Shown here piece by piece: positions 39,154 to 64,000 of a DNA stretch of 64,000 nucleotides (positions are counted from its first letter, which is position 1; each line of letters opens with the position of its first letter). The notes beneath the pieces are model-generated. The model searched no databases. It saw only the letters and a list, made by a program, of their open reading frames with translations, and was not told the DNA's origin. The stretch is from Massilia atriviolacea (GTDB taxonomy: Bacteria; Pseudomonadota; Gammaproteobacteria; Burkholderiales; Burkholderiaceae_D), in the NCBI RefSeq assembly GCF_003953935.1, contig NZ_RXLQ01000002.1, forward strand, positions 248,001 through 312,000. Direction: 5' to 3'. A program made the translations under genes and the position numbers.

Positions 39154-39200
39154 TACGAACGATGGCATGAGCTGGAAGGCGCATGCATTTGCAGTAAGCA

Positions 39201-39226
39201 AGCCCCTGAGTTCAGGGGCTTTTTTT
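39201..39226 (+). terminator. guaA intrinsic terminator
   Basis: AGCCCCTGA (39201-39209) and TCAGGGGCT (39212-39220) are perfect inverse repeats, followed by six more T residues (39221-39226). This isolates guaA from the peptide synthetase genes. Confidence 0.92.
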
Positions 39227-39906
39227 CGTCCGTACTGCGTAGCGATAAGATAAATTTCCTGAGTTTAATCGATGCTGCACATTATAAAGAAAATGCTGCT
39301 TAATAATCGGCAAATAAAATTTTCTATCGAATATTAATTTCATTTAATCATTATTATGCATATAGAATAATTTAAAAAATAAAATGACAAATCTTAATAA
39401 TTGATTTACTGTTCTGGCTGAGCGAACTGATAGCTATACCGCCTTGGCATAAAAATATTTACGCTTGTCAATGCATCTGCATAGGATATGAGTTTATGTC
39501 GTGCCTTATACAATATCGAACATCGGGACTTTTCCTTCGTTTCCGTACGCCTCCTTCCTTGGCCAGTCATGCGTGCAGGCGCTAGGTAATCGCCTCGCGC
39601 ATGCAGCTTCCACAGCGTGCGCCTCGTGGGCAAAGACACGCCAGCACGCCACCGTAGCAGTGGCCGCGCTCATGACACCGCCATTTAATTAATAAAAATA
39701 AAAATCATACCATTGCGGGAAATGACTTCGGTAATACCACCGAGGTCGCCGTGGGATATTGCCCGGATAATCGCTTCGCACACCTGCCTTGATTATCGGC
39801 GACCACTTATCCGATATGAATGGTGCCGTACTCAGCCTTGCCCAAGTTAATAAGTTCATTGAAAGGCGGATAACTTTCTGCCCAGCATCAACTTCGGAGG
39901 AATGGA
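39227..39906 (+). promoter_or_regulatory. AT-rich gene-free leader upstream of the NRPS genes
   Basis: This stretch has no convincing gene. Bases 39241-39420 are markedly AT-rich against the GC-rich surroundings. A promoter candidate is TTGTCA (39465-39470), 16 bases, TATGAG (39487-39492). A 9-bp hairpin with one wobble lies at 39724-39747 (GACTTCGGT/ACCGAGGTC, loop AATACC). CGGATAA occurs at 39764-39770 and 39867-39873, and inverted (TTATCCG) at 39807-39813, with a related ATTATCGG at 39792-39799. GGAGG (39896-39900) is the ribosome site of the first synthetase. The NRPS promoter and operator most likely lie here, but none is proven. Confidence 0.5.
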
Positions 39907-42900
39907 ATGGAACGGATGAGTGGAGACAAGCAGACCGGCGATCGAGCAGCCATGTCGGCCGTACGGTTGTCGATCGCACAGGAAGCAGTCTGGTCCGACC
40001 TGGCGCATCTGGCCGATCGCGGTTCGCGCAGCGGCGGATGGGTTTGTCCGCTAACGCGGCCATGCGATCCGTCGGACGTGCGCGCCGTGCTCCAGCGCCT
40101 CGTCGACGCCCACGATGCCTTGCGCATGGTGCTGATCGGCAACAATCCCATTCCGCATATGCTGTCCACCGCCGAAGCGCCACTGCGCATTGTCGATCTG
40201 TCGGACCAGGCCGACAGCGCGCAACGCGCGGCGCACTATATAGAAGAGGCGAGGAATGCGCCGTTCGCCCTGGACGGCAGCCTGCTCTGGGAGTTGCTGC
40301 TGGTCAGGTCCAGCGCGCAGGACGGCACGTGGATGTTGCGCTGCCATCCGCTGGTCTGCGACAGCGCCGCCCAGCGCCTGCTGTATCGCGCCCTGTTCGA
40401 CGGCGGCGCGCTCCCGGCAGCGGACGCGTTTCCCTTGCTCGAGCAGTTGCGCGCGGACGACGCCTATCTGGCCTCGGCCGCGTGCGCGCGCGACCAGGCC
40501 TTCTGGCAAGACCGCTTTCCCGGACCGCCTGCTCCGCTGTTCGCGCCCAATGCCCGCGCGCCCAATGCCCGCGCGCCCAATGCCCGCGCGCCCGACGCCA
40601 GCGCGGCAAGCACGGTGTCGTGGCATATCGCGCCGGCGCTGCGTGCCCGGCTCGAAGCGCGCGCAGGCGAGCATGCCTGCACCTTGACCGATGTCGTCTT
40701 GACGGCCCTCGCAACGTGCCTCGACCGCCTGCAGGCGGGCGACGGCGCGATCGTCGTTGGCCTGGAACGGCAGCAGCGGCGCGCGTTCGGCCGCTTCTCG
40801 ACGGTCGTTCCGGTGCACGTCCGCCTGCGCTACGACGCTACCTTCGCCCACAACATGCGGCGTGTTGCCGACGACCTGGAGCAGTGCGCGGCGCATGCGC
40901 GCTACCCGCTGTCCCGTCTCGCCTGGCGCGCAGCGGCGGCGCAGCGCCTGGTCGACGTGCTCCTGCGCGTGGATGCCGACGCGTCCGCGCCTGCCCATGA
41001 CGGCCCGGCGTCTTTCGGTCAGGGCCTGGAACATGCCGCGCTGGCCGTCATGGTCCAGGGCGGGGCGGAGGACACCCGGCTCGATTTTCACTGGAACAGG
41101 CAGCTACTGGACTTCCCGTATGTGACGGCGCTGCAAGGCGCGCTTGCCGCCGCGATCGAGGCGGTGGCCGCCGGCGCCCCGTCGCCATTGTCCGCACTGC
41201 CGCTGCAGGGCGCGGCGCAACGCCAGCGCGTGCTCGCCGGCTTTAACGCCACCGCGCGCGACTATCCGCAGGACGTCTGCGTCCACCAGCTGGTCGAACG
41301 CCAGGCGCATGGCGCGCCCGATGCCATCGCCATCGAGTCCGGCGCCGGCGCCTTGCGCTACGGGGAGCTCAACGCGCGCGCCAACCGGCTGGCGCATCAC
41401 CTGCGCACCCTGGGAGTGGGGCCGGAAGCGACCGTCGCCCTGTACCTGGAGCGCGGCGCCGAGATGGTCGTCGCCATGCTCGCCGTGCTCAAGGCCGGCG
41501 GCGCCTATGTGCCGCTGGACCCGGCTTATCCGCCAGCGCGCATCGCCTGGATGCTTGCCGACAGCGGCGCGGCGGTATTGCTGACCCAGTCGCGCCTGAT
41601 GGACGGCATCGCGCCGGCTGCCGCAATGGCCGTCCTGGCACTCGACGCGGAAGCGCCGCCGTGGCGGGAACAGCCCTGCGCCGACCCGGAACGCGCCGCG
41701 AACGGCCTGGCTGCATCGCACCTGGCTTACGTCATCTATACGTCCGGCTCCAGCGGGCAGCCGAAAGGCGTGATGGTCGAACACCGCAACCTGGCCAATC
41801 TGATCGGCTGGCACTGCGAGAGCTTTCCGCTTGCCCCGGGCGAACGCGCCTCCAGCACGGCCGGCATCGCCTTCGACGCCTGTACCTGGGAAGTCTGGCC
41901 GCCATTGTGCATGGGCGCCGTGCTGGCGCTGGCGCCGGCCGATGCGGCGGGCGACCCGCTTGCCTTGCTGGACTGGTGGCACCGGCAGGAGCTGCACACC
42001 AGCTTCCTGGTCACCGCGCTGGCCGATATCGCCGTCAAGCGCGATGCGCGCGCCGCCAGGACGCTGCGCACCTTGCTGGTGGGCGGCGACCGCCTGGCCA
42101 GGGCGCCCGCCGCCGATCTTGACTTCGAACTGGTCAACAACTACGGACCGACCGAGACCACCGTGGTCGCCACGTCGGGGCGCATTCGCTCCGGCGACCC
42201 GGTCGTCCACATCGGCCGTCCGATTGCCAACACCAGCATCTATCTGCTCGACCGCCACGGCCAGCCGGTTCCGGTGGGGATTGCCGGCGACATGTACATC
42301 GGCGGCGCCGGCGTGGCGCGCGGCTACCTGAACCAGCCGCACCTGACCCGGGAGCGCTTTTTGGCCGACCCGTTCGCGGGCGTGCCCGGTGCGCGGATGT
42401 ACCGGAGCGGCGACCTGGCGCGCTGGCTGGACGACGGCAACATCGAATTTTTGGGACGTAACGACCACCAGGTCAAGATCCGGGGCGTGCGCATCGAACT
42501 TGGCGAAATCGAAGCGCAGCTGGCCTGCCAGCCCGGGGTGCGCGAAGCGGTGGTGCTGGCGCGCGACGATATCCCCGGCGCTGCGCGCCTGGTCGCGTAT
42601 TTCACCGGCACGGCCGACGCGCGCGCGCTGCGCACTGCGCTGGCGCGCACCCTGCCGGCCAGCATGGTTCCCGCCGCATGCGTGCCGCTCGACGCGCTCC
42701 CGCTCACCCCCAACGGAAAAATCGACCGCGCGCAGCTGCCGGCTCCCGCCGCCAGCGCCTTTGCCCAGCGCCCGTACGCGGCGCCGCAAGGGCCGCTGGA
42801 ACAGGCGCTGGCCGCCATCTGGTCCGACCTGCTGCAATGCGGCCCGGTGGGACGCGACGACCATTTCTTCGAGCTCGGCGGCCACTCGCTGCTGGCGGTC

Positions 42901-45900
42901 GAGCTGATGGAGCGCCTGCGCCGCGCCTCGCTCGCCGCCGATATCCGCACCTTGTTCGCCCAGCCGACCATCGCCGACCTGGCGCTGGCGGTACAAGATG
43001 CGCAAGGGCGATGCGCCGGCGCCGCGAATACCCCCGCCGTGCTCCCCTTGATCGGGCTCGACGCCGAACAGATCGCCAGGATCGCTGCGGCCGTTCCCGG
43101 CGGCGCGGCGAACATCCAGGATGTCTACCCGCTGGCGCCGCTGCAGGAAGGGATCCTGTTCCACCACCTGATGCAGGGCGAAGGCGATCCCTATCTGCTG
43201 CTTGCCGCATGGTCCTTCGACACGCGCGGGCGCATGGATGGTTTCGTGCAGGCGCTGCAGCAGGTCATCGCCCGCCACGACGCGCTGCGCACCGCCGTCC
43301 TGTGGGAAGGCTTGCCGGAACCGGTGCAGGTGGTCTGGCGCAGCGCGCCGCTCGCGCTGCGGGAACTCGCGTTTGCGCAGGGCGGCTCGGCAGCCGCGCT
43401 GGCCGCCCACACCGACCCGCGCCGCATGCGCCTCGACCTGCGCCAGGCGCCGCTGATGCGCGCGTTTGCCGCCTTCGACGCCGAGCGCCAGTGCTGGCTG
43501 CTGCATCTCCTGTTGCATCACATGGTGGTCGATCACGCAACGCTGGCCCTGCTGCTGCGCGAGGCGGCCGCCATCCTCGGCGGCGGCGCGCATGCCTTGC
43601 CGCCGCCTGAGCCGTTCCGCGCCTTCGTCGCGCGTGCGCGCCAGGCGGGCAGGGCGGACGCGCACGAAGCCTTTTACCGCGCCATGCTGGGCGATGTCGA
43701 CGAGCCGACCACGCCGTTCGGACTGGCCGATGTGCGCGGCGACGGCAGCACCATTCGCGAGGCCGAACGCCTGCTCGGCGCGCGCCTGTCGCAACGCCTG
43801 CGCGAGCAGGCCAGGGCGCTGGGCGTCAGCCCGGCCAGCCTGTTTCATTGCGCCTGGGCGCAGGTGCTGGCGCGCGCCACGGGACGCGATGACATCGTCT
43901 TCGGTACGGTCCTGTACGGGCGCATGCAGGAAGGGGCCAGCGCCGAGCGCGCCATGGGCCTGTTCGTCAATACGCTGCCGCTGCGCATCCGCCTGGGCGA
44001 GATCAGCGTCGTGGAAAGCGTGCGCGAGACCCACGCGGCCCTGGCCCGCCTGGTCATGCACGAAGATGCCTCGCTCGCCCTGGCCCAGCGCTGCAGCGCG
44101 CTGCCGGCCGGCACGCCCTTGTTCTCGTCGCTGCTGAACTACCGCCACGGCGCCGGGCTCGATACTGTCCGCTGGGGCGAGGGCATTGCCATGGCGCCGG
44201 TGCAGGAGCTGAGCAACTACCCTTTCAGCTTGCGCGTCGACGACCTGGAACACGATTTCCGGCTCAGTACCCTGATCGCGCTGCCGGTGCCGGCGGACCG
44301 GATCTGCGACTACATGCATACGGCGCTCGAACGGATCGCCGACGCGCTGGAACACGCACCGCACACGCCGGCATCGCGCATCGACGTGATGAACGCCGCC
44401 CAGCGCCATGAAGTGCTGCGCAGCTGGAACGACACCCGGCGCGAGTTCGGCGCCGCCTTCGTCCACGAACTGGTCGAGCAGCGCGCGGCGCAATCGCCGG
44501 CGGCGATCGCCCTGGAGGCGGAGGGGGAAACGCTTAGCTACCGCGACCTGAACCAGCGCGCCAACCGCCTGGCCCACTACCTCGTTCGTCTCGGCGTGCG
44601 GCCCGACACGCGCGTGGCGCTGGCGCTGGAGCGCGGCGTGGCGCTGGTGGTCGGCATGCTCGCCACGCTCAAGGCCGGCGGCGCCTACGTGCCGCTCGAC
44701 CCGCATTATCCCTCCGAGCGCCTCGCTTTCATGCTCGACGACTGCCGGCCGAAGGTGGTGCTCACCCAGGCATCGGTGCAGGAACGGCTGCCGGCCTGCC
44801 GCGCCCTGATGACGGCCACGGTGCTCGAACTCGATGCGGCGCCGGCGCCGTGGGCCGACGCCGGCGCGGCCGATCCCGGGCGCGCCGCGAGCGGCCTGGC
44901 GCCATCGCACCTGGCGTATGTGATCTACACCTCCGGCTCGACCGGCAAGCCGAAAGGGGTCATGGTCGAACAGCGCAACCTGGCGAACCTGGTCGGCTGG
45001 CATACCGACAGTTTTCCGCTGGCCGCCGGCGAGCGGGCCTCGAGCACTGCGGGGATTGCCTTCGACGCCTGCACCTGGGAAGTCTGGCCGCCCCTGTGCA
45101 TGGGCGCCGTGCTGACCCTGGCGCCGCCCGGCGCCGCCGCCGATCCGGTCGCGCTGCTCGACTGGTGGGAGCGGCAGGACCTGCACAACAGCTTCCTGGT
45201 CACTGCGCTGGCCGACGTGGCCTTGCTGCGCGAGCGCAAGGGCAACGCGCGCCTGAGAACCCTGCTGATCGGCGGCGACCGACTGCGCAAGGCGCCCGCC
45301 GCCGCTCTGCCCTTCGAGGTCGTCAACAACTACGGCCCGACCGAAACGACCGTGGTGGCCACCTCGGGACGCCTGCTTGCCGGGGACCCGGTGGTCCACA
45401 TCGGCCGTCCGATCGCCAACACCAGCATCTACCTGCTCGACCGGCATGGACGGCCGGTGCCGCCGGGGGTGGCCGGCGAGATGTACATCGGCGGCGCCAG
45501 CGTGGCGCGTGGCTACCTGAACCAGCCGACGCTGACCGAGGAACGCTTCCTGGCCGACCCGTTCGCGGACACGCCCGATGCGCGCATGTACCGGACCGGC
45601 GACATGGCGCGCTGGCTCGACGGCGGCGCCATCGAATTTTTGGGCCGTAACGATCACCAGGTCAAGATGCGCGGCCTGCGCATCGAACTGGGCGAGATCG
45701 AAACGCACCTCGGCCGCCACGACGGGGTGCGCGAAGCGGTGGTGCTGGCGCGTGAAGACAGCCCCGGCGAGCAGCGCCTGGTGGCCTACCTGGTCGGCGA
45801 GGTCGACACCCAGGCCGTGCGCGACGCGCTGGCGCGCCAGTTGCCCATGTATATGGTGCCGGCCGCCTATGTGCTGCTGGCAGCCATGCCGCTCACCCCC

Positions 45901-48900
45901 AACGGAAAACTGGACCGCAAGGCGCTGCCCGCGCCGGACGGCTCGGCGTACGCCCAGCGTGACTACGAGGCGCCGCAAGGGCCCACCGAAAGCGCGCTGG
46001 CCGCGATCTGGGCCGAACTGCTCCAGCGCGACCGCGTCGGGCGCCACGATCACTTCTTCGAACTGGGCGGCCACTCGCTGCTGGCCGTGCAGCTGATGGA
46101 ACGGATGCGCCGCCAGCACCTGGCGGCCGACATCCGCACCCTGTTCGCGCAGCCGACGCTGGCCGCGCTGGCGCGTGCGGTCGACGCCGCCGGCCATGCG
46201 GGCGCCGCCGCCGCGGTACCTGCGAATGCCATCCCGGACGGCTGCGCCGCGATCACGCCCGCCATGCTGCCCCTGGTGAGGCTGGACGCCGGCCAGATCG
46301 AGCGCATCGCCCGCATGGTACCGGGTGGAATGGCGAATATCCAGGACATCTACCCGCTTGCGCCGCTGCAGGAAGGCATCCTGTTCCACCACCTGCTGCA
46401 GACCGAGGGCGACCCCTATCTGTCGTCGGCGACCATGGCGTTCGACTCGCGCGCGCGCATGGACGGTTTCGTGGCGGCGCTCGGCCAGGTCATCGAGCGT
46501 CACGATGTGCTGCGTACCGCCGTGCTATGGGAAGGGCTGGACGAACCGGTACAGGTGGTGTGGCGCCGCGCGCAGTTCACGGTCGACATGCCGGCCCTGG
46601 GGCCGGGCGACACCGCCGCGCAACTGCGCGCCGTGGCCGATCCGCTGCATTTCCGCCTCGACGTGCGCCAGGCGCCGCTGCTGCACGGCTTTGCCGCCTT
46701 CGACCAGGCATCGCAAAGCTGGCTGCTGCAACTGCTGATGCATCACATGATCCTCGATCACACCACCCTCGACATCATGTTCCAGGAAATGGGGCTGATC
46801 CAGGCCGGGCGCGCCGATGCGTTGCCCGAACCGGTCCCGTTCCGCGATTTCGTGGCCGAGGCGCGCCGCGAGGGCAGGGCGCGCGACCACGAAGCGTTCT
46901 TCCGCCAGATGCTGGGCGACGTCGACGAGCCGACCGCGCCGTTCGGCCTGACCGACATCAAGGGCGACGGCGGCAACATCGCGGAGGTGCGCGCGCGCGT
47001 GCCAGCGGCCCTGGCGCAGCGCCTGCGGCGCCAGGCCAGGGCGGCCGGCGTGAGCGCGGCCAGCCTGTTTCACTGGGCCTGGGCCCAGGTGCTGGCCAAG
47101 ACCACGGGACGCGACGAGGCCGTGTTCGGCACGGTGCTGTTCGGCCGCATGCAGGGCGGCGCCGGCGCCGACCGCGCCATGGGCCTGTTCATCAATACGC
47201 TGCCCCTGCGCGTCATGCTGGGCGAGGTGAGCGTGCACGATGGCGTGCGCCGCACTCACGCACTGCTGGCCGGCTTGATGGAGCACGAGCACGCGCCCCT
47301 GGCCCTGGCCCAGCGCTGCAGCGCGCTGCCCAATAGCGTGCCGCTGTTTACCGCCTTGCTCAATTACCGCCATAGCGCCAACGAACGGATCGACCGCAAC
47401 GACGATTCCGGCTGGCGCAGCGGCATCGACATGCTGTCGGCGCACGAGCGCACCAACTATCCGTTCGGCCTGTCGGTGGACGACCTGGGCCAGGACTTCG
47501 ACCTGAGCGTGCAGATCGCGCACCCGGTCGACCCTGCCCGCATCTGCCGCTACCTCCAGCGCGCGCTCGAAGGCATGGTCGAGGCCCTCGAACAGGCGCC
47601 CCGGACGCCGGCGTGGCGCATCGCCATCGCCGATCCGGATGAGCGCCGCCAAACCCCCGGCCAAACCCCCGGCCAAGCGCCGCCGCCCGCCGAAGAGCAT
47701 TGCATCGACCGCCTGTTCGAGCGCCAGGCCGCGCGCACGCCGCATGCCGTGGCGGTGACGTACGAGGACCGGGAACTGAGCTATGCAGCCCTGAACGAGC
47801 GGGCCAACCGCCTGGCGCATCATCTGCGCAGCCTGGGAGCGGGCCCGGAGCAGCGCATCGCCATCTGCATGCAGCGCGGCCTGGACATGGTGGTCGCCAT
47901 TCTCGCCGTGCTCAAGGCCGGCGCCGCCTACGTGCCGATGGACCCGGCCTATCCGGCCGAGCGGCTGGCCTACATGCTCCACGACAGCGCGCCGCTGCTG
48001 ATGCTGAGCGACGCCGGCGCCCCGGTTCCGGACGGGGTCAGCGTGCTCGCCATCGACGGCGAGGCGCAGCCGTGGCAGTCGCTTTCCCCGCACAACCCGG
48101 AGCACACGGGCGCCACGCCGCGCAGCCTGGCCTACGTCATCTACACCTCCGGCTCCACCGGCCAGCCCAAGGGCGTGATGGTCGAACATGGCAACGTCGC
48201 GCGCCTGTTCGGCGCCACCCGCCCGTGGTTCGGCTTCGGCCCGTCCGACGTGTGGACCCTGTTTCACTCCTTCGCTTTCGATTTTTCGGTGTGGGAGCTG
48301 TGGGGCGCGCTGCTGCACGGCGGCCGGCTGGTGGTCGTTCCCCATGCGACCACGCGCAATCCGCAAGCCTTCTACGCCTTGCTGTGCGAACGCGGCGTCA
48401 CGGTTCTCAACCAGACCCCGAGCGCCTTCCTGCAGCTGATCGACCAGCAGGGAGCGCAGCCGCACCGCCTGCGCCACGTCATCTTCGGCGGCGAAGCGCT
48501 GGAGGTGGCAAGCCTGGCGCGCTGGTTCGCGCGCAGCGATGCCGGCGCCACGCAGCTGGTCAATATGTACGGCATCACCGAAACCACGGTCCACGTGACG
48601 TACCGGCCAATCGTGGCGGCCGACCTGGCCGGCCGGCGCGAGGCCAGCCCGATCGGACACGCCATCCCCGACCTGCAACTGTATCTGCTCGACGCCCACG
48701 GCGAGCCGGTGATCGACGGCGTGCCCGGCGAGATGTACGTCGGCGGCGCCGGGGTGGCCCGCGGCTACCTCAATCGCCCCGACCTGACCGAGCAGCGTTT
48801 CGTGGCCGATCCTTTCGGCGGCGCGCCCGGCGCGCGCCTGTACAAGACCGGCGACATGGGCCGCCGCCTGCCCGACGGCGCGATCGAATTCCTGGGCCGC

Positions 48901-52662: not shown

Positions 52663-52668
52663 AAAATG
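52654..52668 (+). promoter_or_regulatory. Coupled stop/start junction of the two NRPS genes
   Basis: AAGG at 52654-52657, inside the last codons of NRPS 1, sits eight bases before ATG 52666. The stop TGA (52660-52662), one AAA codon and the ATG are all in one frame, so translation of the second gene should be coupled to the first. Confidence 0.7.
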
Positions 52669-55600
52669 ACCAACCCATCATTGGAAAACCTGGATCCATC
52701 CGAGAGGGAAGCGCTGCTGGCCCGCGCGCGCGCCGCCAAACTCCAGCGCAAGGGTTCCACCCAGCGCGCCCCGATCGAGGTGCGCGCAACGCCCGGCGGC
52801 GCCTGGCCGCTGTCGTTCGCCCAGCAACGCCTGTGGTTCATCGCCCAGATGGGACAGGACGCGAGCGTGGCTTACCACATTCCGGGGGCCCTGGCGCTCG
52901 ACGGGCAGCTCGACGACGACGCGCTCGACGCCGCGCTGGACCGCATCGTGCAGCGCCACGAAGCGCTGCGCACCGGCTTCGCGCTGGTCGACGGCCGCGC
53001 GCAGCAGTGCATCGCGCCGCACGGACGCTTCGCGCTGGAGCGGCACGACATCAGCGCGGACGACCCGCATGCGCGCCAGGCGGCCATTGCCCACTGGAGC
53101 GCGCACGAAGCGGCCGCCCCGTTCGACCTGGGACGCGCGCCCCTGATCCGCGCCCGCCTGCTGCGCCTCGGCCAGCGCGAGCACATTCTGCTGTTGACCT
53201 TGCACCACATCGTCTCCGACGGCTGGTCGATGGGCGTGCTGATGCGCGAACTGGGCGAGCTGTATCGCGCCTATGCCGACCAAGGCGTGGCGCATTGGGA
53301 GGACCCGCTGCCGCCGCTGCCGGTGCAGTATGCCGACTACACCCTGTGGCAGCGCCAGTGGCTCGATGGCGCCGTGCAGAAGCAGCAACTGGCCTACTGG
53401 CGCGCGCAACTGGCCGGCGCCCCCGAACTGCTGACGCTGCCGACCGACCGGCCGCGTCCCGCAGTGCAGGACTACAGCGGCCGCAGCATCGGCTTCGAGC
53501 TCGATGCGGATCTGAGCGCCGCGCTCAAGGCGCTAGCGCATAAACACGGTAGCACCCTGTATATGACCCTGCTGGCGGCATGGAGCGCCCTGTGCGCGCG
53601 CCTGGCCGGCCAGGACGAGGTGGTCATCGGCTCGCCGGTCGCCAACCGCACCCGGGTCGAGCTGGAACCGCTGATCGGCTTTTTTGTCAATACGCTGTCG
53701 CTGCGCATCGACGTGAGCGCCAATCCGAGCGTGAGCGAGTTGCTGGCCCAGGTGCGCGAAACCGTGCTGCAGGCGCAAAGCCACCAGGATGTGCCGTTCG
53801 AGCAGGTGGTCGAAGCGCTCAATCCGCAGCGCACCCTGGCGCACAGCCCGATCTTTCAATTGATGTTCGCCTGGCAGAACACCCCGCGCGAAGCGCTGGA
53901 GCTTGGCCAGATCGCCTTGCGCGAACTCGAATTCGACCACCACAGCGCCAAGTTCGACCTCGCGCTGGACATGCAGGAGGCGGACGGGCGCATCGTCGGC
54001 CGCCTGGGTTTCGCGACCGCCCTGTTCGAGCGCGCCACCATGGAACGCCATGCCGCCTACCTGAAGGCCCTGCTGGAGGGCATGGTGCGCGACGACAGCC
54101 AGCCGGTGGCGTCGATTCCCATCCTAGGCCAGGCCGAACGGCGCCAGGTGCTGGTCGACTGGAACGCTACCGGGCGCGATTATGGCGACGCCTTTGCCCA
54201 TGAACTGTTCGAGCGGCGGGCCGCGCAGGCGCCGGATGCGATCGCCCTGGAAGCCGATGGCGCTTCGCTCACCTACCAGGCGCTCAACGAGCAGGCCAAC
54301 CAGCTGGCGCACTATCTGGTCTCGCTCGGCGTGCGCCCGGATACGCGCGTGGCGATCGCGCTCGAACGCGGCATGCCGCTGGTGCTGGCCATGCTCGCCA
54401 CCCTGAAGGCCGGCGGCGCCTACGTGCCGCTCGACCCGCACTACCCGTCCGACCGCCTTGCCTTCATGCTCGACGACAGCCGTCCCAAGGTGGTGCTCAC
54501 GCAGGCGTCGCTGCAGGAGCGCCTGCCGGCCTGCCGCGCCCTGATGACGGCTGCCGTGCTGGAACTCGATGCCGCGCACGCGCCGTGGGCAATCCAGCCG
54601 GCCAGCAATCCGAAACGCACCGCCACCGCGCTGGCGCCATCGCATCTGGCGTATGTGATCTACACCTCGGGCTCGACCGGCAAGCCGAAAGGCGTGATGG
54701 TCGAACACCGCAACCTGGCCAACCTGGTCGGCTGGCACGCCGACGCCTTTCCGCTGATGGCGGGCGAACGCGCTTCGAGCACCGCGGGGATCGCCTTCGA
54801 CGCCTGCACCTGGGAAGTCTGGCCGCCGCTGTGCATGGGCGCCGCGCTGGCCCTGGCGCCGGCCGGCGCCAGCGGCGATCCGCTGGCACTGCTGGACTGG
54901 TGGGAACGGCAGCAGCTGCACTGCAGCTTCCTGGTGACGGCGCTTGCCGACATCGCCGTCCAGCGCGAGGCCGGCGCGGCAAAGCCGCTCAGGACCCTGC
55001 TGGTCGGCGGCGACCGCCTGGGCAAGGTACCCGCGGCCGGCCTTGGGTTCGACCTGGTCAACAATTACGGACCGACCGAAGCGACGGTGGTGGCGACGTC
55101 GGGCCGCATCCGTGCCGGCGACGCCGTGGTCCACATCGGCCGTCCGATCGCCAACACCAGCATCTATCTGCTCGATCGGTACGGCCAGCCGGTCCCGGTG
55201 GGCGTGACGGGCGAAATCCACATCGGCGGCGCCAGCGTGGCGCGCGGCTACCTGAACCAGCCGCAGTTGACGCAGGAACGCTTTCTTCCCGACCCGTTTG
55301 CGCAGATCCCGCACGCCCGCATGTACAGGAGCGGCGACCTGGCGCGCTGGCTGGCCGACGGCACCATCGAATTCCTGGGCCGGAACGATCACCAGGTCAA
55401 GATCCGTGGCCTGCGCATCGAACTGGGCGAGATCGAAGCGCATCTGCGCCGCCAGAACGGCGTGCGCGAAGCGCTGGTGCTGGCGCGCGAGGACAGTCCC
55501 GGCGACCGGCGCCTGGTCGCCTACCTGGCCGGCGATGTCGACACCGGCGCCGTGCGCGAAGCGCTGGCGCGCGAACTGCCCGAGTACATGGTGCCCGCCG

Positions 55601-58600
55601 CCTGCGTCGTGCTCGACGCCATGCCGCTCACCGCCAACGGAAAGCTGGACCGCAAGGCGCTGCCCGCCCCGGAAGGCGCGGCCTACGCCCAGCGCTCGTA
55701 CCAGGCGCCGCAAGGGGCCACCGAGACGGCGCTGGCCGCGATCTGGGCCGAGCTGCTGCAGCGCGACCGGGTCGGCCGGCACGACCACTTCTTCGAACTC
55801 GGCGGCCACTCGCTGCTGGCCGTGCAGCTGATGGAACGCATGCGCCGCATGCATCTTGGCGCCGACATCCGCACCCTGTTCGCGCAACCGACGCTGGCCG
55901 CGCTGGCGCAGGCGGTGGAGCAGGCCGCCGGCACCGGCGGCGGCGAAGTGGCCGTGCCGCCGAATGCCATTCCGGCCGGCTGCAACGAGATTACCCCCGC
56001 CATGCTGCCGCTGGTAACGCTGGACCAGCGCCAGATCGCGCGCATCGCCAGCGCCGTGCCGGGCGGGATGCCGGCCATCCAGGATATCTACCCGCTGGCG
56101 CCGCTTCAGGAAGGCATCCTGTTCCACCATCTGCTGCAGGCCGAGGGTGACCCCTACCTGTCGTCGGCCACCCTGGCCTTCGACTCGTGCGCGCGCATGG
56201 AGGGCTTTGTCGCCGCGCTGCAGCAGGTGATCGACCGCCATGACGTGCTGCGCAGCGCCATCCTGTGGGAAGGCTTGAGCGAACCGGTGCAAGTGGTCTG
56301 GCGCCAGGCGCGCTTCGTGGTCGACACCCCGGCACTGCCAGCGGGCGACACGGTCGCCCAACTGTGCGCCCTGGCCGATCCGCGCCACGTGCGCCTGGAC
56401 GTGCGCACGGCGCCGCTGCTGCGCGGCTTCAGCGCCTTCGACGACAGGAGCGGGCGCTGGCTGCTGCAACTGCTGCTGCACCATATGATCCTCGACCACA
56501 CGACCCTGGACGTCATGTTCCAGGAGATCGCGGCGATCCAGGGCGGCCGGGCAGGCGAGCTGCCCGAGCCGGTCCCGTTCCGCAATTTCGTGGCGCAGGC
56601 GCGCCTGGAGGGCAGGGCGCGCGAGCACGAAGCCTTTTTCCGCCAGATGCTGGGCGACGTCGACCAGGCCACCGTGCCCTACGGCCTGGCCGACGTCAAG
56701 GGCGATGGCAGCAAGGTCGAAGAAGTCCAGCGCCGCCTGACGCCGGTGCTGTCGCAGCGCATCCGCCGGCAGGCGCGGGCCGCCGGAGTCAGCGCGGCCA
56801 GCCTGTTTCACTGGGCCTGGGCCAGGGTCGTCGCCCAGGGGAGCGGGCGCGACGACGTCATCTTCGGCACCGTGCTGTTCGGCCGCATGCAGGGCGGCGC
56901 CGGCGCCGACCGCGCCATGGGCCTGTTCATCAATACCCTGCCGCTGCGGGTGCGCCTGGGCGCGGCCAGCGTGCAGGACGAACTGCGCGCCATTCACGAG
57001 ACCCTGCTGCAACTGGTGCGCCACGAGCACGCGCCGCTGTCGCTGGCACAGCGCTGCAGCGCCCTGCCGGCCGGCCAGCCGCTGTTTTCGGCGCTGCTGA
57101 ACTTCCGCCATAGCGCCGGCCGCGACGACCAGGCAGATGGCGGCTGGGACGAAGGCATCGAGGTGCTGTCGGCCCAGGAGCGCACCAATTATCCATTCGG
57201 CCTGTCGGTCGACGACCTGGGGCAGGACTTCCTGCTGACGCTCCAGGTGGCAGCGCCGGTCGAGGCGCGCCAGATCTGCGACGACGTACGGCGCGAACTG
57301 GAAGCGCTGGCCGACGCGCTCGACAAGAACGAGCGCACCCCTGTCGCCGCCGTCAACGGCGCGGCGCCATGGAGCGACGCCGTGCGCAGCTTCGCGCAGC
57401 CATTCTGCATTCACGAACAGTTCGAACAGCAGGTCGAGCGCACGCCGCACGCCATCGCCGTGCGCCATGGCGACGCCGAACTCAGTTACGGCCACCTGAA
57501 CGCGCTGGCCAACCAGCTTGCGCATCACCTGCGCGCGCTCGGCGTGCGGCCGGACGACCGTGTCGCCATCTGCGTGCAGCGCGACCACAGCATGCTGGTC
57601 GCCATCCTGGCCGTGCTCAAGGCCGGCGGCGCGTATGTGCCGCTCGACCCGGCCTATCCGGCCGCGCGCCTGGCGCACATGCTGCACGACAGCGCGCCGA
57701 AGGTGCTCATCACCCACGAAGGCACCCTGCAGGCGGTGGAGCACGCCGTGCCGGTGCTCGACCTCTCGCAAAGCCAGCCTGCCTGGGCGCACAACGCCAC
57801 GAGCAACCCGCGCGCGGACGAGGTCGGGCTGCGGCCGCACCACATGGCCTACATTATCTACACCTCGGGTTCGACCGGCCTGCCGAAGGGCGTGATGGTG
57901 GAACACGCCAACGTCGGGCGCCTGTTTGCCGCCACCGCCGACTGGTTCGGCTTCGGCCCGGACGATGTCTGGACCATGTTCCATTCCTACGCCTTCGACT
58001 TTTCGGTATGGGAGATGTGGGGCGCCCTGCTGCATGGCGGCCGCGTGGTGCTGGTGCCGCAGGCGATCGCGCGCTCGCCGGACGACTTTTACCGGCTGGT
58101 GTGCGAGCAAGGCGTGACGGTCCTGAACCAGACTCCCGGCGCCTTCCGCCGCTTCATCGCCAGCCAGGAGGCGAGCGAGGCAACCCACAGCCTGCGCTAT
58201 GTCGTGTTCGGCGGCGAGGCGCTGCAACCGGCCATGCTCGCGCCGTGGTACGCCCGCAATGGCGAACGCACGCGCCTGGTCAATATGTACGGCATCACCG
58301 AAACGACCGTGCACGTGACCTACCGCGCGCTCACCCCGGCCGATGCGCAGGGCAGCGGCAGCCCGATCGGCATGCCGATTCCCGACCTGGCCGTGCACAT
58401 CCTCGATACGCAGGGCCGCCCGGCGCCGCTCGGCGTGGTCGGCGAAATGCATGTCGGCGGCGCCGGCGTGGCGCGCGGCTACCTGAACCGGCCCGAGCTG
58501 ACCGCCGAACGCTTCATCGACGACCCGTTCCAGCCCGGCGTCGGCAAGCGCCTGTACCGCAGCGGCGACCTTGGCCGGCGCCTGCGCGACGGATCGATCG

Positions 58601-61600
58601 AATTCATGGGCCGTAACGATGCCCAGGTCAAGGTGCGGGGCTTTCGCATCGAGCTGGGCGAAATCGAGGCGCGCCTGCTGCACCTGCCCGCCGTGCGCGA
58701 AGCGGTGGTGCTGGCCATCGACGACGCCCAGGGCGACAAGCGCCTGGCCGCTTACGTCGTCCCGCGCGACGGCGCGGCGCAGGGCGACCCGATGGCGCTG
58801 CGCGCGGCGCTGGCGCAGCTGCTGCCGGACTATATGGTACCGGCCTGCATCGTCTGCCTGGACAGCCTGCCGCTGACCGCGCACGGGAAACTCGACCGCG
58901 CCGCGCTGCCGGCGCCCGACGCAGCGCGCAGCCAGGCCGGCTATACGGCCCCGCGCAACGCCGCCGAAGAATGCATCGCGTCGATCTGGGCCGACGTGCT
59001 GGGGATCGACAAGGTCGGCGTGCACGATAACTTCTTTGCGCTGGGCGGCGACTCGATGCGCACCATTGCCATCGTGTCGAAAGCGCGCGAGCGGGGAATC
59101 GCACTCTCGATCGAGCACATTTTCAGCCACCTGAGCGTGGCCGGTGTCGCCGCCGCACTGGCGCGCGCCCAGCCCGACGCCGCCGCCCTCGCCACCACCC
59201 CCGCCGCCCCCGCCGCCATGGCGCTGTCGCCCGCCGATGCCGCGCTGCTGCCGGGCGACGTCGAAGACGCCTACGAGCTGACCTGCCTGCAACTGGGCAT
59301 GGTCTTCCATAACCAGATGTCGGCCGACGGCAGCGTGTACCACGATGTCTTCAGCCATCACCTGCGCATCGCGGCTTGGCATGCCGGGACGTTTCAACAG
59401 GCGCTCGACGCGGTGGTGGCGCGCCACCCGGTCCTGCGCACCTCGTTCGACCTGCGTACCTACAGCGTCCCCCTGCAACTGGTGCACAGGGATGCGCGCA
59501 TCGTGGCCGACATCAGCGACATCAGCGCCTTCGACGCGGCGCGGCAGGAAAGCCTGATCGGCGACTGGCTGCGCCGGGAGCGCGCTAACGGCTTTGCCCC
59601 GGGCCAGGCGCCGATGCTGCGCATCTTCCTCCATCGACGCGGCGACGACAGCGTCCAGCTCACGCTCAGCTTCCACCATGCGATCCTGGACGGCTGGAGC
59701 GTGGCATCCTTCGTCACCGAACTGTTCCAGGCATATCGAGCCTTGCAGGCGGGCGGGCGCATCGACGCCCCGGCGCTCGCCTGCAGCTTCCGGCAGGCCG
59801 TCGCCGCCGAACAGGCCATCCTCGGCTCGTCCTCCGCCGCTGCGTTCTGGAGCGACTACCTGGCCGGCCACACGGTCGCCAGCCTGCCGCCGCGCGACGC
59901 GGACCAGGATCCCGGCGCGTCGCGCACGGCCGCCGTCACGCTGCCGGAAGGCGTGACGGCGCGGCTGGACGCCCTGGCGCGCGAGCTGCACGTGCCCTTG
60001 CGTACGCTGCTGCTGGCCGCCCACGTGCGCGTCATGGCGCTGTTCTCTGGCGAGAGCGACGTGCTGACAGGGATGGTCTCGCATGCGCGTCCGGCCGAAC
60101 AGGATGGCGACAAGGTGCTCGGCCTGTACCTGAACACGCTGCCCCTGCGCCAGGCGATCGCGCCGGGCAGCTGGAAGGACCTGATCGTGGCCACCTTCAA
60201 GTCGGAACTGGCGGTGATGCCGTACCGCGCCTATCCGTACGCCCGCATCATGCAGGAAAACGGGCGCCGCGCCCTGTTCGACACGGCCTTCAACTTCGTC
60301 AATTTTTACGTCTATGACGGCCTGCGCAATGTGCAGTCGCTCGAGTTCCTGGAAGGCCAGGCGTTCGAGGCCACCAACCACGCGCTGACCTTCAATGCGG
60401 CCCAGGAAGGCGACAGGCTGACCTTGTCGCTGCAACGCGACCCGGCGCGGCTGTCGGCGCGCCAGGGGGCACGCATCGCCGCGGCCTACCAGGCGGCCCT
60501 GGTGACGATGGCGCGCGAGCCGGACGCCGACCATGTGCTGGCCGGCCTGCTCGACGCGGCCGAGCGCGAGCAGGTGCTGCGCGGCTGGAACGACACCGCG
60601 CGCGACTATCGCCTGGACCTGTGCATCCACGAACTGATCGAAGCGCAGGTGCGCAGGTCTCCGCTGGCGGTGGCGCTGGAAGCCGGCGGCACGCGCCTGA
60701 GCTACGCCGCATTGAATCAAGAGGCCAACCGGCTTGCCGCCCATCTGCGCATGCTTGGCGTGGGTCCGGAGCGGCGCGTCGCGCTGTGCCTGGAACGCGG
60801 CGTCGCCATGGTGGTGGGGCTGCTGGCCGTGCTCAAGGCCGGCGGCGCCTATGTGCCGCTCGACCCGGCCTATCCGCCGGAGCGCCTCGCCTTCATGCTC
60901 GACGACTGCGCTCCGCTGGTGCTGCTGACCGACGCCGGCCTGGCGCGCCGCCTCAGCGTCGCGCCGGAGTTGCACGTGCTGCTGCTCGACGCCGTCAATC
61001 CGCCATGGCAGGCGCTCGCGGGCAGCGATGTCGCCGCAGCGGGCCTGAGTCCGGCCAGCCTGGCGTACGTGATCTACACCTCCGGTTCCACCGGCCAGCC
61101 CAAGGGCGTGATGAACGAGCACCTGGGCGTGGTCAACCGCCTGCTGTGGATGCAGGAAGCCTACCGCCTGGATGCGGCCGACGCGGTGCTGCAAAAGACG
61201 CCGTACAGCTTCGACGTGTCGGTATGGGAGTTCTTCTGGCCGCTGATGAGCGGTGCGCGCCTGGTGATGGCACGCCCGGACGGCCACAAAGACCCGGCCT
61301 ACCTGGCCGATGCCATCGAACGGCATGGCATCACCACCGTGCACTTCGTGCCGTCGATGCTGCAGGCCTTCGTCGATAACGGCGCGGCCGCGCGCTGCAC
61401 CGGCCTGACACGGGTCGTGTGCAGCGGCGAAGCCTTGCCCGGCGCACTGGCGCGGCGCATGCGGCAATGCCTGCCGGGCGCGCAGCTGTACAACCTGTAC
61501 GGCCCGACCGAAGCCGCCGTCGACGTCACCGCCTGGCACTGCGCCGGCCCCGATCTGCCCGACAGCATCCCGCTCGGCCGGCCGATCGGCAACACCGCCA

Positions 61601-64000
61601 TTTACCTGCTCGATCGCTACGGCCAGCCGGCGCCGATCGGCGTGCCCGGCGAAATCCACATCGGCGGCGTGCAGGTGGCGCGCGGTTACCAGAACCGCGA
61701 GGAACTCACGCGCGAGCGCTTCGTGCCCGATCCGTTCGCGGGCAAGCCGGGCGCGCGCATGTACAAGACCGGTGACCTGGGCCGCTGGCTGGCCGACGGC
61801 AGCGTCGAATTCCTCGGCCGCAACGATCACCAGGTCAAGATCCGCGGCCTGCGCATCGAACTTGGCGACATCGAAGCGCACCTCGCGCGCCAGGAAGGCG
61901 TGCGCGAAGCCGTGGTGCTGGCACGCGAGGACAGTCCGGGCGACAAGCGCCTGGTCGCCTACCTGGTCGGCCAGGTCGACACGCAGTCCGTGCGCGCCGC
62001 GCTGGCGCGCGAGCTGCCCGAGTACATGGTTCCCGCCGCCTGCGTCGTGCTCGACGCCTTGCCCCTGAGCGCCAACGGCAAGCTCGATCGCAAGGCGCTG
62101 CCGGCGCCGGAAGGCTCGGCGTATGCGCGGCGCACCTGGGAGGCGCCGCAAGGCCCGACCGAAACCGCGCTGGCCGGCATGTGGGCCGCCCTGCTGAAAG
62201 TGGAGCGGGTAGGGCGCAACGATCACTTCTTCGAACTGGGAGGCCACTCGCTGCTGGCCGTGCAGCTGATGGAACGCATGCGCCGCCAGGAGCTGTTTGC
62301 CGACATCCGCACCCTGTTTTCGCAACCGACCCTGGCCGCGCTGGCACAGGCGGTGGACCAGGCCGGGCAAGCGGGCCGGCGCGACGTGGTGGTGCCGCCC
62401 AACGGCATCCCGCCCGGCTGCACCGATATCACGCCGGCCATGCTGCCGCTGGTGGCATTGGACGCCGAACAGATCGCGCGCATCGTCGCCAGCGTCCCCG
62501 GTGGCGCCGCCAACGTGCAGGACATCTATCCGCTCGCGCCGCTGCAGGAAGGCATATTGTTCCATCACCTGCTGCAGAACAAGGGCGATGCCTATCTGCT
62601 GTCGGCCACCCTGTCGTTCGACGCGCGCGAACGGCTCGATGCCTTCACCGGCGCCTTGCAGCAGGTGCTCACGCGGCACGATGCGCTGCGCACCGCGCTG
62701 CTGTGGGAAGGCTTGCCCGAGCCGGTGCAGGTGGTCTGGCGCGAAGCGACGTTCACGGTCGACACACCGGTCCTGCCCGGCGTCGACACGCCGGCCGAGC
62801 TGCGCGCCCACGCCGATCCGCGCCACTTCCGCATCGACCTGCGGCGCGCCCCGCTGATGCACGGCTTTGCGGCCTTCGACGACAAGACCGGCTGCTGGCT
62901 GCTGCAGCTGCTGCTGCACCACGTGGTGACCGACCACACCACGCTCGACGTGCTGTTCGAGGAAATGGCGCTGATCCAGGCCGGACGCGCGCAGGACTTG
63001 CCGCTGCCGGTCCCGTTCCGCAATTTCGTGGCGCAGGCACGCCTGGGCGTGAGCGTGCAGGAACACGAACAATTCTTCCGCCGGATGCTGGGCGACGTCG
63101 ACCAGCCGACCGCGCCCTTCGGCTTGCTGGACATGCAGGGCGACGGCTCCAACGTCGACGAGGCGCGCCTGCCGCTCGACCCGGCGCTGGCCCTGCGCCT
63201 GCGCGAGCATGCGCGCCGCCTTGGCGTGAGCGCCACCAGCCTGTTCCACCTCGCGTGGGCGCAGGTACTGGCGCGCACCAGCGGGCGCGATGACGTCGTC
63301 TTCGGCACCGCGCTGTTCGGCCGCATGCATGGCGGCAGCGGCGCCGACCGCGTCCTGGGCCTGTTCATGAACACGCTGCCGGTGCGCATCCGCCTTGACG
63401 ACACCCCGCTCGAAGCGGCCGTGCGCGATACCCATGAACGCCTGGCGCAACTGCTGCATCACGAACATGCGCCGCTGTCGCTGGCCCAGCGCTGCAGCGG
63501 CATGGCGGCCTCGGTGCCGCTGTTCTCGGCCGGATTCAACTACCGTCACAGCCCGCCGGCCCAGCAGGTATGGGAAGGGATGGAGGTGCTGCACGGCGAG
63601 GAGTTGAGCAACTTCCCGCTGGTGTTGAAGGTGGACGACCATGGCGCGGCGTTTTCGCTCACGGCCAACGCGCAGCGTCCGATCGACCCGATGCGCGTGT
63701 GCCGCTACATGCACACGGCGCTCGACCATCTGGCCGATGCGCTCGACAATGCACCGGCCACCACCAGCTGCCAGCTGGACATCCTGCCCGCCGGGGAGCG
63801 CCGCCAGCTGCTCGACGGCTGGAACGGCGCCATTGTCGCACTCGACGCCGGCCGCTGCATCCATCAACTGTTCGAACAGCACGCGGCCAGTTCGCCCGAC
63901 GCCGCCGCGCTGGTGGTGGACGGCAGCGCGCCGCTCAGCTACGCCGAGCTCAATGCCCGCGCCAACCGGCTCGCGCATCACCTGATCAAGTCGGGCCTGC
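52666..64000 (+). CDS. Nonribosomal peptide synthetase 2, partial (predicted Leu-Thr-Ser-X...)
   Basis: The frame stays open to the window edge (at least 3778 aa). A short charged N-terminal helix (residues 9-30) resembles a docking element. C5 (HHIVSDG, H180) is an ordinary L-to-L type. A5 (D712, DAWFLGNVV) gives Leu; T5 is S1049. C6 has the dual epimerisation motif HHLLQAEGD (H1154) and HHMILDH (H1272). A6 (D1778, DFWNVGMVH) gives Thr; T6 has GGDS (S2130) instead of GGHS. C7 is unlike the others: FHNQMSADG at H2215 and HHAILDG at H2337. A7 (D2850, DVWHVSLVD) gives Ser; T7 is S3195. C8 is again dual (H3300, HHVVTDH at H3418). A8 begins at about residue 3730 and is cut off before its pocket. 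Release domain and remaining modules lie outside the window. Confidence 0.95.
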   Translation, partial: MTNPSLENLDPSEREALLARARAAKLQRKGSTQRAPIEVRATPGGAWPLSFAQQRLWFIAQMGQDASVAYHIPGALALDGQLDDDALDAALDRIVQRHEALRTGFALVDGRAQQCIAPHGRFALERHDISADDPHARQAAIAHWSAHEAAAPFDLGRAPLIRARLLRLGQREHILLLTLHHIVSDGWSMGVLMRELGELYRAYADQGVAHWEDPLPPLPVQYADYTLWQRQWLDGAVQKQQLAYWRAQLAGAPELLTLPTDRPRPAVQDYSGRSIGFELDADLSAALKALAHKHGSTLYMTLLAAWSALCARLAGQDEVVIGSPVANRTRVELEPLIGFFVNTLSLRIDVSANPSVSELLAQVRETVLQAQSHQDVPFEQVVEALNPQRTLAHSPIFQLMFAWQNTPREALELGQIALRELEFDHHSAKFDLALDMQEADGRIVGRLGFATALFERATMERHAAYLKALLEGMVRDDSQPVASIPILGQAERRQVLVDWNATGRDYGDAFAHELFERRAAQAPDAIALEADGASLTYQALNEQANQLAHYLVSLGVRPDTRVAIALERGMPLVLAMLATLKAGGAYVPLDPHYPSDRLAFMLDDSRPKVVLTQASLQERLPACRALMTAAVLELDAAHAPWAIQPASNPKRTATALAPSHLAYVIYTSGSTGKPKGVMVEHRNLANLVGWHADAFPLMAGERASSTAGIAFDACTWEVWPPLCMGAALALAPAGASGDPLALLDWWERQQLHCSFLVTALADIAVQREAGAAKPLRTLLVGGDRLGKVPAAGLGFDLVNNYGPTEATVVATSGRIRAGDAVVHIGRPIANTSIYLLDRYGQPVPVGVTGEIHIGGASVARGYLNQPQLTQERFLPDPFAQIPHARMYRSGDLARWLADGTIEFLGRNDHQVKIRGLRIELGEIEAHLRRQNGVREALVLAREDSPGDRRLVAYLAGDVDTGAVREALARELPEYMVPAACVVLDAMPLTANGKLDRKALPAPEGAAYAQRSYQAPQGATETALAAIWAELLQRDRVGRHDHFFELGGHSLLAVQLMERMRRMHLGADIRTLFAQPTLAALAQAVEQAAGTGGGEVAVPPNAIPAGCNEITPAMLPLVTLDQRQIARIASAVPGGMPAIQDIYPLAPLQEGILFHHLLQAEGDPYLSSATLAFDSCARMEGFVAALQQVIDRHDVLRSAILWEGLSEPVQVVWRQARFVVDTPALPAGDTVAQLCALADPRHVRLDVRTAPLLRGFSAFDDRSGRWLLQLLLHHMILDHTTLDVMFQEIAAIQGGRAGELPEPVPFRNFVAQARLEGRAREHEAFFRQMLGDVDQATVPYGLADVKGDGSKVEEVQRRLTPVLSQRIRRQARAAGVSAASLFHWAWARVVAQGSGRDDVIFGTVLFGRMQGGAGADRAMGLFINTLPLRVRLGAASVQDELRAIHETLLQLVRHEHAPLSLAQRCSALPAGQPLFSALLNFRHSAGRDDQADGGWDEGIEVLSAQERTNYPFGLSVDDLGQDFLLTLQVAAPVEARQICDDVRRELEALADALDKNERTPVAAVNGAAPWSDAVRSFAQPFCIHEQFEQQVERTPHAIAVRHGDAELSYGHLNALANQLAHHLRALGVRPDDRVAICVQRDHSMLVAILAVLKAGGAYVPLDPAYPAARLAHMLHDSAPKVLITHEGTLQAVEHAVPVLDLSQSQPAWAHNATSNPRADEVGLRPHHMAYIIYTSGSTGLPKGVMVEHANVGRLFAATADWFGFGPDDVWTMFHSYAFDFSVWEMWGALLHGGRVVLVPQAIARSPDDFYRLVCEQGVTVLNQTPGAFRRFIASQEASEATHSLRYVVFGGEALQPAMLAPWYARNGERTRLVNMYGITETTVHVTYRALTPADAQGSGSPIGMPIPDLAVHILDTQGRPAPLGVVGEMHVGGAGVARGYLNRPELTAERFIDDPFQPGVGKRLYRSGDLGRRLRDGSIEFMGRNDAQVKVRGFRIELGEIEARLLHLPAVREAVVLAIDDAQGDKRLAAYVVPRDGAAQGDPMALRAALAQLLPDYMVPACIVCLDSLPLTAHGKLDRAALPAPDAARSQAGYTAPRNAAEECIASIWADVLGIDKVGVHDNFFALGGDSMRTIAIVSKARERGIALSIEHIFSHLSVAGVAAALARAQPDAAALATTPAAPAAMALSPADAALLPGDVEDAYELTCLQLGMVFHNQMSADGSVYHDVFSHHLRIAAWHAGTFQQALDAVVARHPVLRTSFDLRTYSVPLQLVHRDARIVADISDISAFDAARQESLIGDWLRRERANGFAPGQAPMLRIFLHRRGDDSVQLTLSFHHAILDGWSVASFVTELFQAYRALQAGGRIDAPALACSFRQAVAAEQAILGSSSAAAFWSDYLAGHTVASLPPRDADQDPGASRTAAVTLPEGVTARLDALARELHVPLRTLLLAAHVRVMALFSGESDVLTGMVSHARPAEQDGDKVLGLYLNTLPLRQAIAPGSWKDLIVATFKSELAVMPYRAYPYARIMQENGRRALFDTAFNFVNFYVYDGLRNVQSLEFLEGQAFEATNHALTFNAAQEGDRLTLSLQRDPARLSARQGARIAAAYQAALVTMAREPDADHVLAGLLDAAEREQVLRGWNDTARDYRLDLCIHELIEAQVRRSPLAVALEAGGTRLSYAALNQEANRLAAHLRMLGVGPERRVALCLERGVAMVVGLLAVLKAGGAYVPLDPAYPPERLAFMLDDCAPLVLLTDAGLARRLSVAPELHVLLLDAVNPPWQALAGSDVAAAGLSPASLAYVIYTSGSTGQPKGVMNEHLGVVNRLLWMQEAYRLDAADAVLQKTPYSFDVSVWEFFWPLMSGARLVMARPDGHKDPAYLADAIERHGITTVHFVPSMLQAFVDNGAAARCTGLTRVVCSGEALPGALARRMRQCLPGAQLYNLYGPTEAAVDVTAWHCAGPDLPDSIPLGRPIGNTAIYLLDRYGQPAPIGVPGEIHIGGVQVARGYQNREELTRERFVPDPFAGKPGARMYKTGDLGRWLADGSVEFLGRNDHQVKIRGLRIELGDIEAHLARQEGVREAVVLAREDSPGDKRLVAYLVGQVDTQSVRAALARELPEYMVPAACVVLDALPLSANGKLDRKALPAPEGSAYARRTWEAPQGPTETALAGMWAALLKVERVGRNDHFFELGGHSLLAVQLMERMRRQELFADIRTLFSQPTLAALAQAVDQAGQAGRRDVVVPPNGIPPGCTDITPAMLPLVALDAEQIARIVASVPGGAANVQDIYPLAPLQEGILFHHLLQNKGDAYLLSATLSFDARERLDAFTGALQQVLTRHDALRTALLWEGLPEPVQVVWREATFTVDTPVLPGVDTPAELRAHADPRHFRIDLRRAPLMHGFAAFDDKTGCWLLQLLLHHVVTDHTTLDVLFEEMALIQAGRAQDLPLPVPFRNFVAQARLGVSVQEHEQFFRRMLGDVDQPTAPFGLLDMQGDGSNVDEARLPLDPALALRLREHARRLGVSATSLFHLAWAQVLARTSGRDDVVFGTALFGRMHGGSGADRVLGLFMNTLPVRIRLDDTPLEAAVRDTHERLAQLLHHEHAPLSLAQRCSGMAASVPLFSAGFNYRHSPPAQQVWEGMEVLHGEELSNFPLVLKVDDHGAAFSLTANAQRPIDPMRVCRYMHTALDHLADALDNAPATTSCQLDILPAGERRQLLDGWNGAIVALDAGRCIHQLFEQHAASSPDAAALVVDGSAPLSYAELNARANRLAHHLIKSGL

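Follow-up and report, generated by a model that had tools for sequence, protein, structure and literature searches.

The 64,000-nucleotide stretch of Massilia atriviolacea DNA analysed here (contig NZ_RXLQ01000002.1, positions 248,001 to 312,000; the window) contains two adjacent forward-strand non-ribosomal peptide synthetase (NRPS) genes, as the original prediction had described, separated by 3 bases (Table 1). The right edge of the window cuts the second gene, which can be followed in the adjoining contig (C12, whose numbering equals window position + 248000). In full, the line comprises ten C-A-T modules, and gene 2 carries two GxSxG motifs of thioesterase type (GWSGG and GHSFG); seven of the ten modules are complete within the window, and modules 8–10, the tandem thioesterase (TE), a beta-hydroxylase gene and an exporter gene all lie to the right of its end. 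The original prediction had closed the peptide with one unspecified residue and looked to the sequence beyond the window; the line does continue there, and that residue becomes three further modules, ten in all. No internal stops are present in the 4251 + 7010 residues (11261) of the two NRPS proteins. Long reverse-strand frames lie opposite the NRPS genes, with the NRPS motifs, and the Pfam domains of gene 1, on the forward strand; codon-score gene calling, having been trained on these same two genes, does not count as independent support for them. Searched against the PDB, a short fragment from the N-terminus of the gene 2 protein found no match.

Table 1. Features of the NRPS locus (window numbering; features past 64000 lie in the adjoining contig)
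Feature	Coordinates	Strand	Remarks
AT-rich intergenic stretch	39157..39906	.	750 bases between guaA and gene 1; GC 0.439 vs 0.707 in gene 1
NRPS gene 1	39907..52662	+	4251 aa; (C1)-A-T, C-A-T, C-A-T, C-A-T; modules 1-4 (Leu, Leu, Thr, Ser)
C1	40075..41361	+	Degenerate starter-type condensation domain; from alignment to Txo1/Txo2, tree and motif
A1	41365..42747	+	DAWFLGNVV (Leu)
C2	43015..44541	+	Dual condensation/epimerisation type (HHMVVDH); predicted D-Leu1
A2	44545..45939	+	DAWFLGNVV (Leu)
C3	46240..47784	+	Dual type (HHMILDH); predicted D-Leu2
A3	47788..49200	+	DFWNIGMVH (Thr)
C4	49444..50946	+	Ordinary type (HHMVADG); predicted L-Thr3
A4	50950..52347	+	DVWHMSLVD (Ser)
NRPS gene 2	52666..64000, continues to 73698 (C12:321698)	+	7010 aa; modules 5-10 and two TE-type motifs
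C5	52801..54276	+	Ordinary type (HHIVSDG); predicted L-Ser4; closest solved C domains Txo2/Txo1
A5	54280..55674	+	DAWFLGNVV (Leu)
C6	55975..57489	+	Dual type (HHMILDH); predicted D-Leu5
A6	57493..58920	+	DFWNVGMVH (Thr)
C7	59182..60705	+	Modifying type (HHAILDG); proposed Thr6 to dehydrobutyrine
A7	60709..62112	+	DVWHVSLVD (Ser)
C8	62416..63942	+	Dual type (HHVVTDH); predicted D-Ser7
A8 (start)	63946..64000	+	DGFIVAGVC, aromatic-like; nearly all right of window (C12:311946-313355)
CmlA-type diiron beta-hydroxylase (P0002)	73695-75287		PF18456; overlaps stop of gene 2
ABC exporter	about 75284-77047		Start by inspection; ABC_membrane and ABC_tran domains; overlaps hydroxylase

Upstream of the NRPS genes are the housekeeping genes smpB, guaB and guaA (by Pfam), and downstream of the exporter are a chitinase gene and a type VI secretion cluster, which (C12:327001-347000; L033) encodes a VgrG-like protein, a DUF2169 protein and two pentapeptide-repeat proteins. 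The intergenic stretch in front of gene 1 is a probable promoter region; a terminator-like repeat can be seen by eye at its guaA end. The same contig carries a second NRPS group (L034-L036, C12:363500-392600) with frames of 1793, 1918, 1014 and 3683 aa and the codes DMIGYGCLF, DAEYIGAIT, DVWHVSLID, DLTKVGHVG, DFWNIGMVH, DVWNIGLIH and DLKNVGSDV; since C12:395012-396220 matches a J. lividum lysine/ornithine N-oxygenase gene at 69%, this is probably a siderophore line. One or two more NRPS lines, cut by contig ends, are present elsewhere in the genome (L038-L040), with the codes DVSSIGSVC (twice), DVWHFSLVD, DAWWLGGTF, DMWDLGMVD and DFWNVGMVH on contig C27, and DMWDLGMVD, DVWHFSLVD and DAWWLGGTF on contig C38.

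We used the hydroxylase as a marker to locate related units. In a family-level draw a close hydroxylase is present in 5 of 392 genomes including the genome analysed here (G000), and any homologue at E <= 1e-60 in 18 of 392; the order-level draw returned the same genome only (1 of 399), the next two homologues being 40% and 38% identical. The four relatives are one of the same genus (G138, 97% identity) and three of a second genus, g40 (G235, G323 and G313, 82%), of which G313 is Pseudoduganella violacea CECT 8897, its match coordinates being identical to those in the genome of named locus L044, and scans of the two genera found close hydroxylases in 2 of 17 and 3 of 74 genomes respectively. 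None of 40 Janthinobacterium genomes contains one, this genus (g6) being recognised by G261, in which the plasmid stretch of J. lividum HAMBI_1919 recurs at 100% and with matching coordinates; three of the 40 (G201, G157 and G237) have homologues of 35-42% identity, all beside unrelated NRPS lines, and were rejected as carriers of the unit. G138 (88.6% and 91.2% protein identity), G235 (66.6% and 71.4%) and G323 have both NRPS genes in full, with four modules in the first and six in the second. The G313 unit is split over contigs; its hydroxylase and exporter are intact, as is most of gene 2, and gene 1 could be read in part (five gene 2 pockets from contig C16, and two gene 1 pockets, Thr and Ser, from L044). 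The pockets read agree across the two genera except for DAWFLGNIL (module 1) and DMENSGAVN (module 9) in g40, and for I/V/L/M substitutions by which the Thr and Ser codes differ among the relatives. Judged by these comparisons, the four genes (two NRPS genes, hydroxylase and exporter) are conserved across the related units.

The surroundings of the unit differ from genome to genome. Of the 31 gene models flanking it (13 left and 18 right, from codon scores, some of them doubtful), none has a match at E <= 1e-5 in the stretches from the four relatives (60 kb in three, and 40 kb without the left flank in G313), a comparison in which the hydroxylase and exporter were matched in all four. The lack of shared flanks in those stretches points to different sites, and does not speak to the extent of transfer. 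A guaA match is present in 16 of the 17 genomes of the genus, and in just one of these 16 loci (with about 1.5 kb examined on each side), that of the genome analysed here, does gene 1 start after guaA; in G138, guaA is about 0.83 Mb from the unit. The four genes are therefore apparently a mobile cassette. Within a plasmid collection no record spans 80% of either query, and a J. lividum plasmid match proved to be a siderophore cluster.

Adenylation pockets were read by profile alignment, after 64 of 610 adenylation hits had been dropped before counts were made. The seven complete pockets in the window read exactly as originally described, each with the A10 lysine, which is present in all ten domains of the full line. 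DAWFLGNVV is a leucine code and DFWN(I/V)GMVH a threonine code. Excerpts of PMC12283262 place DAWFLGNVVK among the commonest codes of the Leu/Ile/Val group and give DVWHMSLVDK as serine. The order Leu-Leu-Thr-Ser-Leu-Thr-Ser proposed for modules 1–7 is thus supported by the pockets, and with those of modules 8–10 (DGFIVAGVC, DMENSGAIN and DAFTVAAIW) the complete reading is Leu-Leu-Thr-Ser-Leu-Thr-Ser-[aromatic-like]-[basic, probably Arg]-[aromatic-like].

Residue 9 is assigned by its neighbours. The A9 domain shares 67% identity with the DVENIGAIN domain of L050, which we take to be a lysobactin-type line, and 62% with the DVENVGAIN domain of a Variovorax line (L090); L102 and L105, both from Variovorax, give Thr-Pro-Pro-x-Asp, Ser and Pro-Asp on what are presumably Pro and Asp codes. 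In the accessible portion of PMC8069584 tripropeptin-like lines are assigned to Variovorax and the related empedopeptin has Arg4. As DVENVGAIN sits at the Arg place of the tripropeptin-like Variovorax line, residue 9 is probably Arg, with Orn possible.

Modules 8 and 10 are harder to read. DASTIAAVC is an aromatic-type code, and it is carried by the nearest domains to A8 (58% and 56%) and by the closest domain to A10 (in L064, 62%, the same domain being 58% identical to A8); a Leu domain follows at 56% for A8, and with domains of other specificity close behind for both, overall identity says little about substrate. The two pockets have a somewhat aromatic look and are not diagnostic of Trp, which is suggested for residue 8 by the janthinocin comparison below. 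PDB neighbours of A8 and A10 are mixed NRPS proteins that do not indicate a substrate, and a literature search with the module 8–10 pockets and neighbouring codes found papers for DAWFLGNVV only. Among the named loci a single A domain, in Vibrio ostreicida (L093, DGFTVAGVC), has a pocket one residue removed from that of module 8.

Condensation domains were classified by motif and in a tree of 590 domains, 59 of 649 hits having been dropped for fewer than 330 aligned letters (including the C1 remnants of g40). The HHxxxDH motif is present in C2, C3, C6, C8 and C10, and a single 156-member clade (support 1.0) contains all 146 HHxxxDH domains of the tree. The dual-type domains downstream of each residue support the D-Leu1, D-Leu2, D-Leu5 and D-Ser7 already predicted, and also a D configuration for residue 9. 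As a calibration, the dual domain of L050 comes after its basic residue, which in lysobactin is D-Arg.

The C7 domain differs in kind. Its PDB matches (E <= 1e-10) are McyA 8jbr (324.2 bits), AmbE 7r9x (209.5 bits) and then PvdL (138.9 bits); of two controls at E <= 1e-20, C5 matches Txo2 at 645.7 bits, with McyA at 113.6 and AmbE at 86.8, and C8 matches McyB at 165 bits and McyA at 108.1, with AmbE not listed. The C domains of McyA and AmbE are dehydrating or modifying. C7 falls in a clade of eight, of which five are the C7 of the cassette, and the upstream residue is Thr in all seven members with a read upstream pocket. These results support the predicted conversion of Thr6 to dehydrobutyrine (Dhb), which is a genetic prediction. 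An HHAILDG C domain is also present in a 4693-aa NRPS frame of Janthinobacterium (L156-L157, G201), where it follows a DAFWLGGTF module, not Thr.

The hydroxylase has a CmlA_N domain (PF18456, 197.4 bits), and its best PDB matches are 8a90 and CmlA (4jo0), with the HxHxDH, GEH and ADS motifs aligned. It resembles the CmlA/FrsH diiron beta-hydroxylases in its combination of CmlA_N with a metallo-beta-lactamase fold and in its conserved metal motifs, including HxHxDH. Elsewhere the genome encodes another CmlA-type hydroxylase (G000:C31:9386-10948, L141), which shares 37% identity with P0002 and whose contig carries an NRPS fragment with the code DATDIGTIY as well. A 43% homologue of P0002 is present in Eleftheria terrae (NZ_CP106952.1).

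The original prediction considered the product unfamiliar, and this is now doubtful, as the ten-residue plan fits the janthinocins, without settling identity with them. Janthinocins A-C are peptide lactones of Janthinobacterium lividum known since 1990, and are given in the available text of PMC4282715 as cyclodecadepsipeptides with dehydro-Trp and dehydro-Abu that vary at position 8 (threo-beta-hydroxy-Trp, beta-keto-Trp or dehydro-Trp) and act against Gram-positive bacteria with a potency greater than that of vancomycin. The line matches them with ten modules (ten residues if each is used once) and the predicted dehydration of Thr6 by a modifying C7. An aromatic-like, not Trp-specific, pocket in module 8 together with a beta-hydroxylase in the cassette, and tandem TE motifs, from which the type of ring is not readable, would be in keeping with a beta-oxidised Trp at position 8 and a lactone. 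This is a likeness in a few features, not in residue sequence, and the excerpted PMC4282715 does not give the end from which position 8 is numbered. A relationship to the janthinocins is likely, and identity probable.

We consider it reasonably probable that this apparently mobile four-gene cassette makes an unlipidated, ten-residue, janthinocin-type peptide lactone. The chain would be H-D-Leu1-D-Leu2-Thr3-Ser4-D-Leu5-Dhb6-D-Ser7-aromatic8 (beta-hydroxylated, probably Trp)-D-Arg9 (or Orn)-aromatic10. Residues 1, 2, 5, 7 and 9 would be epimerised by the dual C domains before condensation, carrier-bound Thr6 dehydrated by C7, and carrier-bound residue 8 hydroxylated by the CmlA-type enzyme; TE1 would close the lactone, TE2 would have an editing role and the ABC protein would export the product, for which antibacterial action may be expected. 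According to the accessible part of PMC3656897, the first TE of a tandem pair macrocyclises lysobactin. Since the metal motifs of the hydroxylase, the exporter and the pockets are intact, the line is likely to be functional.

The cassette could alternatively make a different unlipidated decapeptide lactone that shares features with the janthinocins, for example with Phe or Tyr as residue 8 and with beta-hydroxy-Leu as the hydroxylated residue, and we regard this as the less probable reading, though one of some weight. The aromatic-looking pockets of modules 8 and 10 would accommodate it, as would the absence of close hydroxylases from the sampled Janthinobacterium genomes, among which the producing strain may be missing; the producer genus is a point of difference. 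Janthinocins also contain beta-hydroxy-leucine. FrsH, of the same hydroxylase class, acts on Leu (PMC7794379), and the single hydroxylase of the cassette could do likewise. Against this, the ten residues, position 8, dehydro-Abu and the lactone would all have to be coincidence.

The original prediction of N-acylation is not borne out by C1. In an alignment with Txo1/Txo2, C1 has HPLVCDS at the place of HHIVSDG, i.e. the second His of the expected HHxxxDG, which is catalytic, is replaced by Pro. The C1 domains of G000 and G138 fall within a clade of 20 (support 0.98), the other members of which (18/18) retain HHxxxDG and stand first in lines from Pseudomonas, Serratia and Variovorax, presumably as lipid-loading starters. 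In G235 and G323 some ~160-170 N-terminal residues of C1 are absent, including the motif, leaving a C-terminal remnant of 293-294 residues, and the N-lobe was not found anywhere in their 60 kb stretches. The motif is thus lost in two genomes and the N-lobe in two others. A true lipopeptide, with C1 still acylating Leu1 or the acyl group added otherwise, would be in keeping with the company of C1 in the tree and with the likeness of the rest of the line to lipopeptide synthetases. The line has the dual C/E domains and tandem TE of a cyclic lipopeptide synthetase; a functional starter is the part it apparently lacks, and on the evidence of the C1 motif and N-lobe we set the lipopeptide aside as improbable. 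With C1 dead there would be no acyl donor at the loading of Leu1, and the product of the line is probably an unlipidated peptide lactone; loss of the His argues against acylation, without proving the absence of an acyl chain. That the line is silent or decaying, as the degenerate C1 might suggest, is highly improbable given frames free of stop codons over all 11261 residues, four complete genes with conserved pockets in G138, G235 and G323, and, in G313, an intact hydroxylase and exporter with gene 2 mostly intact.

The machinery is ordinary in kind and well preserved, and is a clear case of a lost starter domain. Whether this is the janthinocin gene cluster itself, reduced to four mobile genes and recording a step from lipopeptide to naked peptide, in which the lipid-loading domain was inactivated in the present genus and deprived of its N-lobe in that of Pseudoduganella violacea, we judge to be evenly poised. 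If so, it provides genes for a family active against Gram-positive bacteria, with production and self-protection testable in sequenced hosts that include a culture-collection strain, and a natural series of lipid loss from intact starter to dead starter to starter without N-lobe. In the passages on janthinocin that were consulted no genes are described; PMC5583390, in excerpt, names janthinocin among peptides from genome-guided strategies, with neither genes nor detail, and an assignment of the cluster may already have been made if work of that kind has been done.

Other known systems resemble the line in part. Empedopeptin, as far as its excerpted description goes, is ruled out by its different residues, and the available text of an activated-sludge NRPS study (PMC10681181) contains nothing on this line. 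The teixobactin synthetases Txo1/Txo2 (PDB 6oyf and 6p1j) are the closest solved relatives of the ordinary C5 and make a different peptide, which is not known to contain dehydrobutyrine. The orfamide/viscosin-type synthetases of Pseudomonas share the starter-type C1, the use of dual C/E domains instead of separate E domains and, from partial descriptions, a tandem TE, but those in the C1 clade keep HHxxxDG intact and specify other residues, whereas C1 here is dead or without its N-lobe. Lysobactin is likewise an unlipidated peptide lactone, of eleven residues in a different order, and its synthetase (LybA/LybB) is similar in its tandem TE (as partially described), in the dual C domain that follows its basic residue (in L050) and in the DVENIGAIN domain to which A9 is closest.
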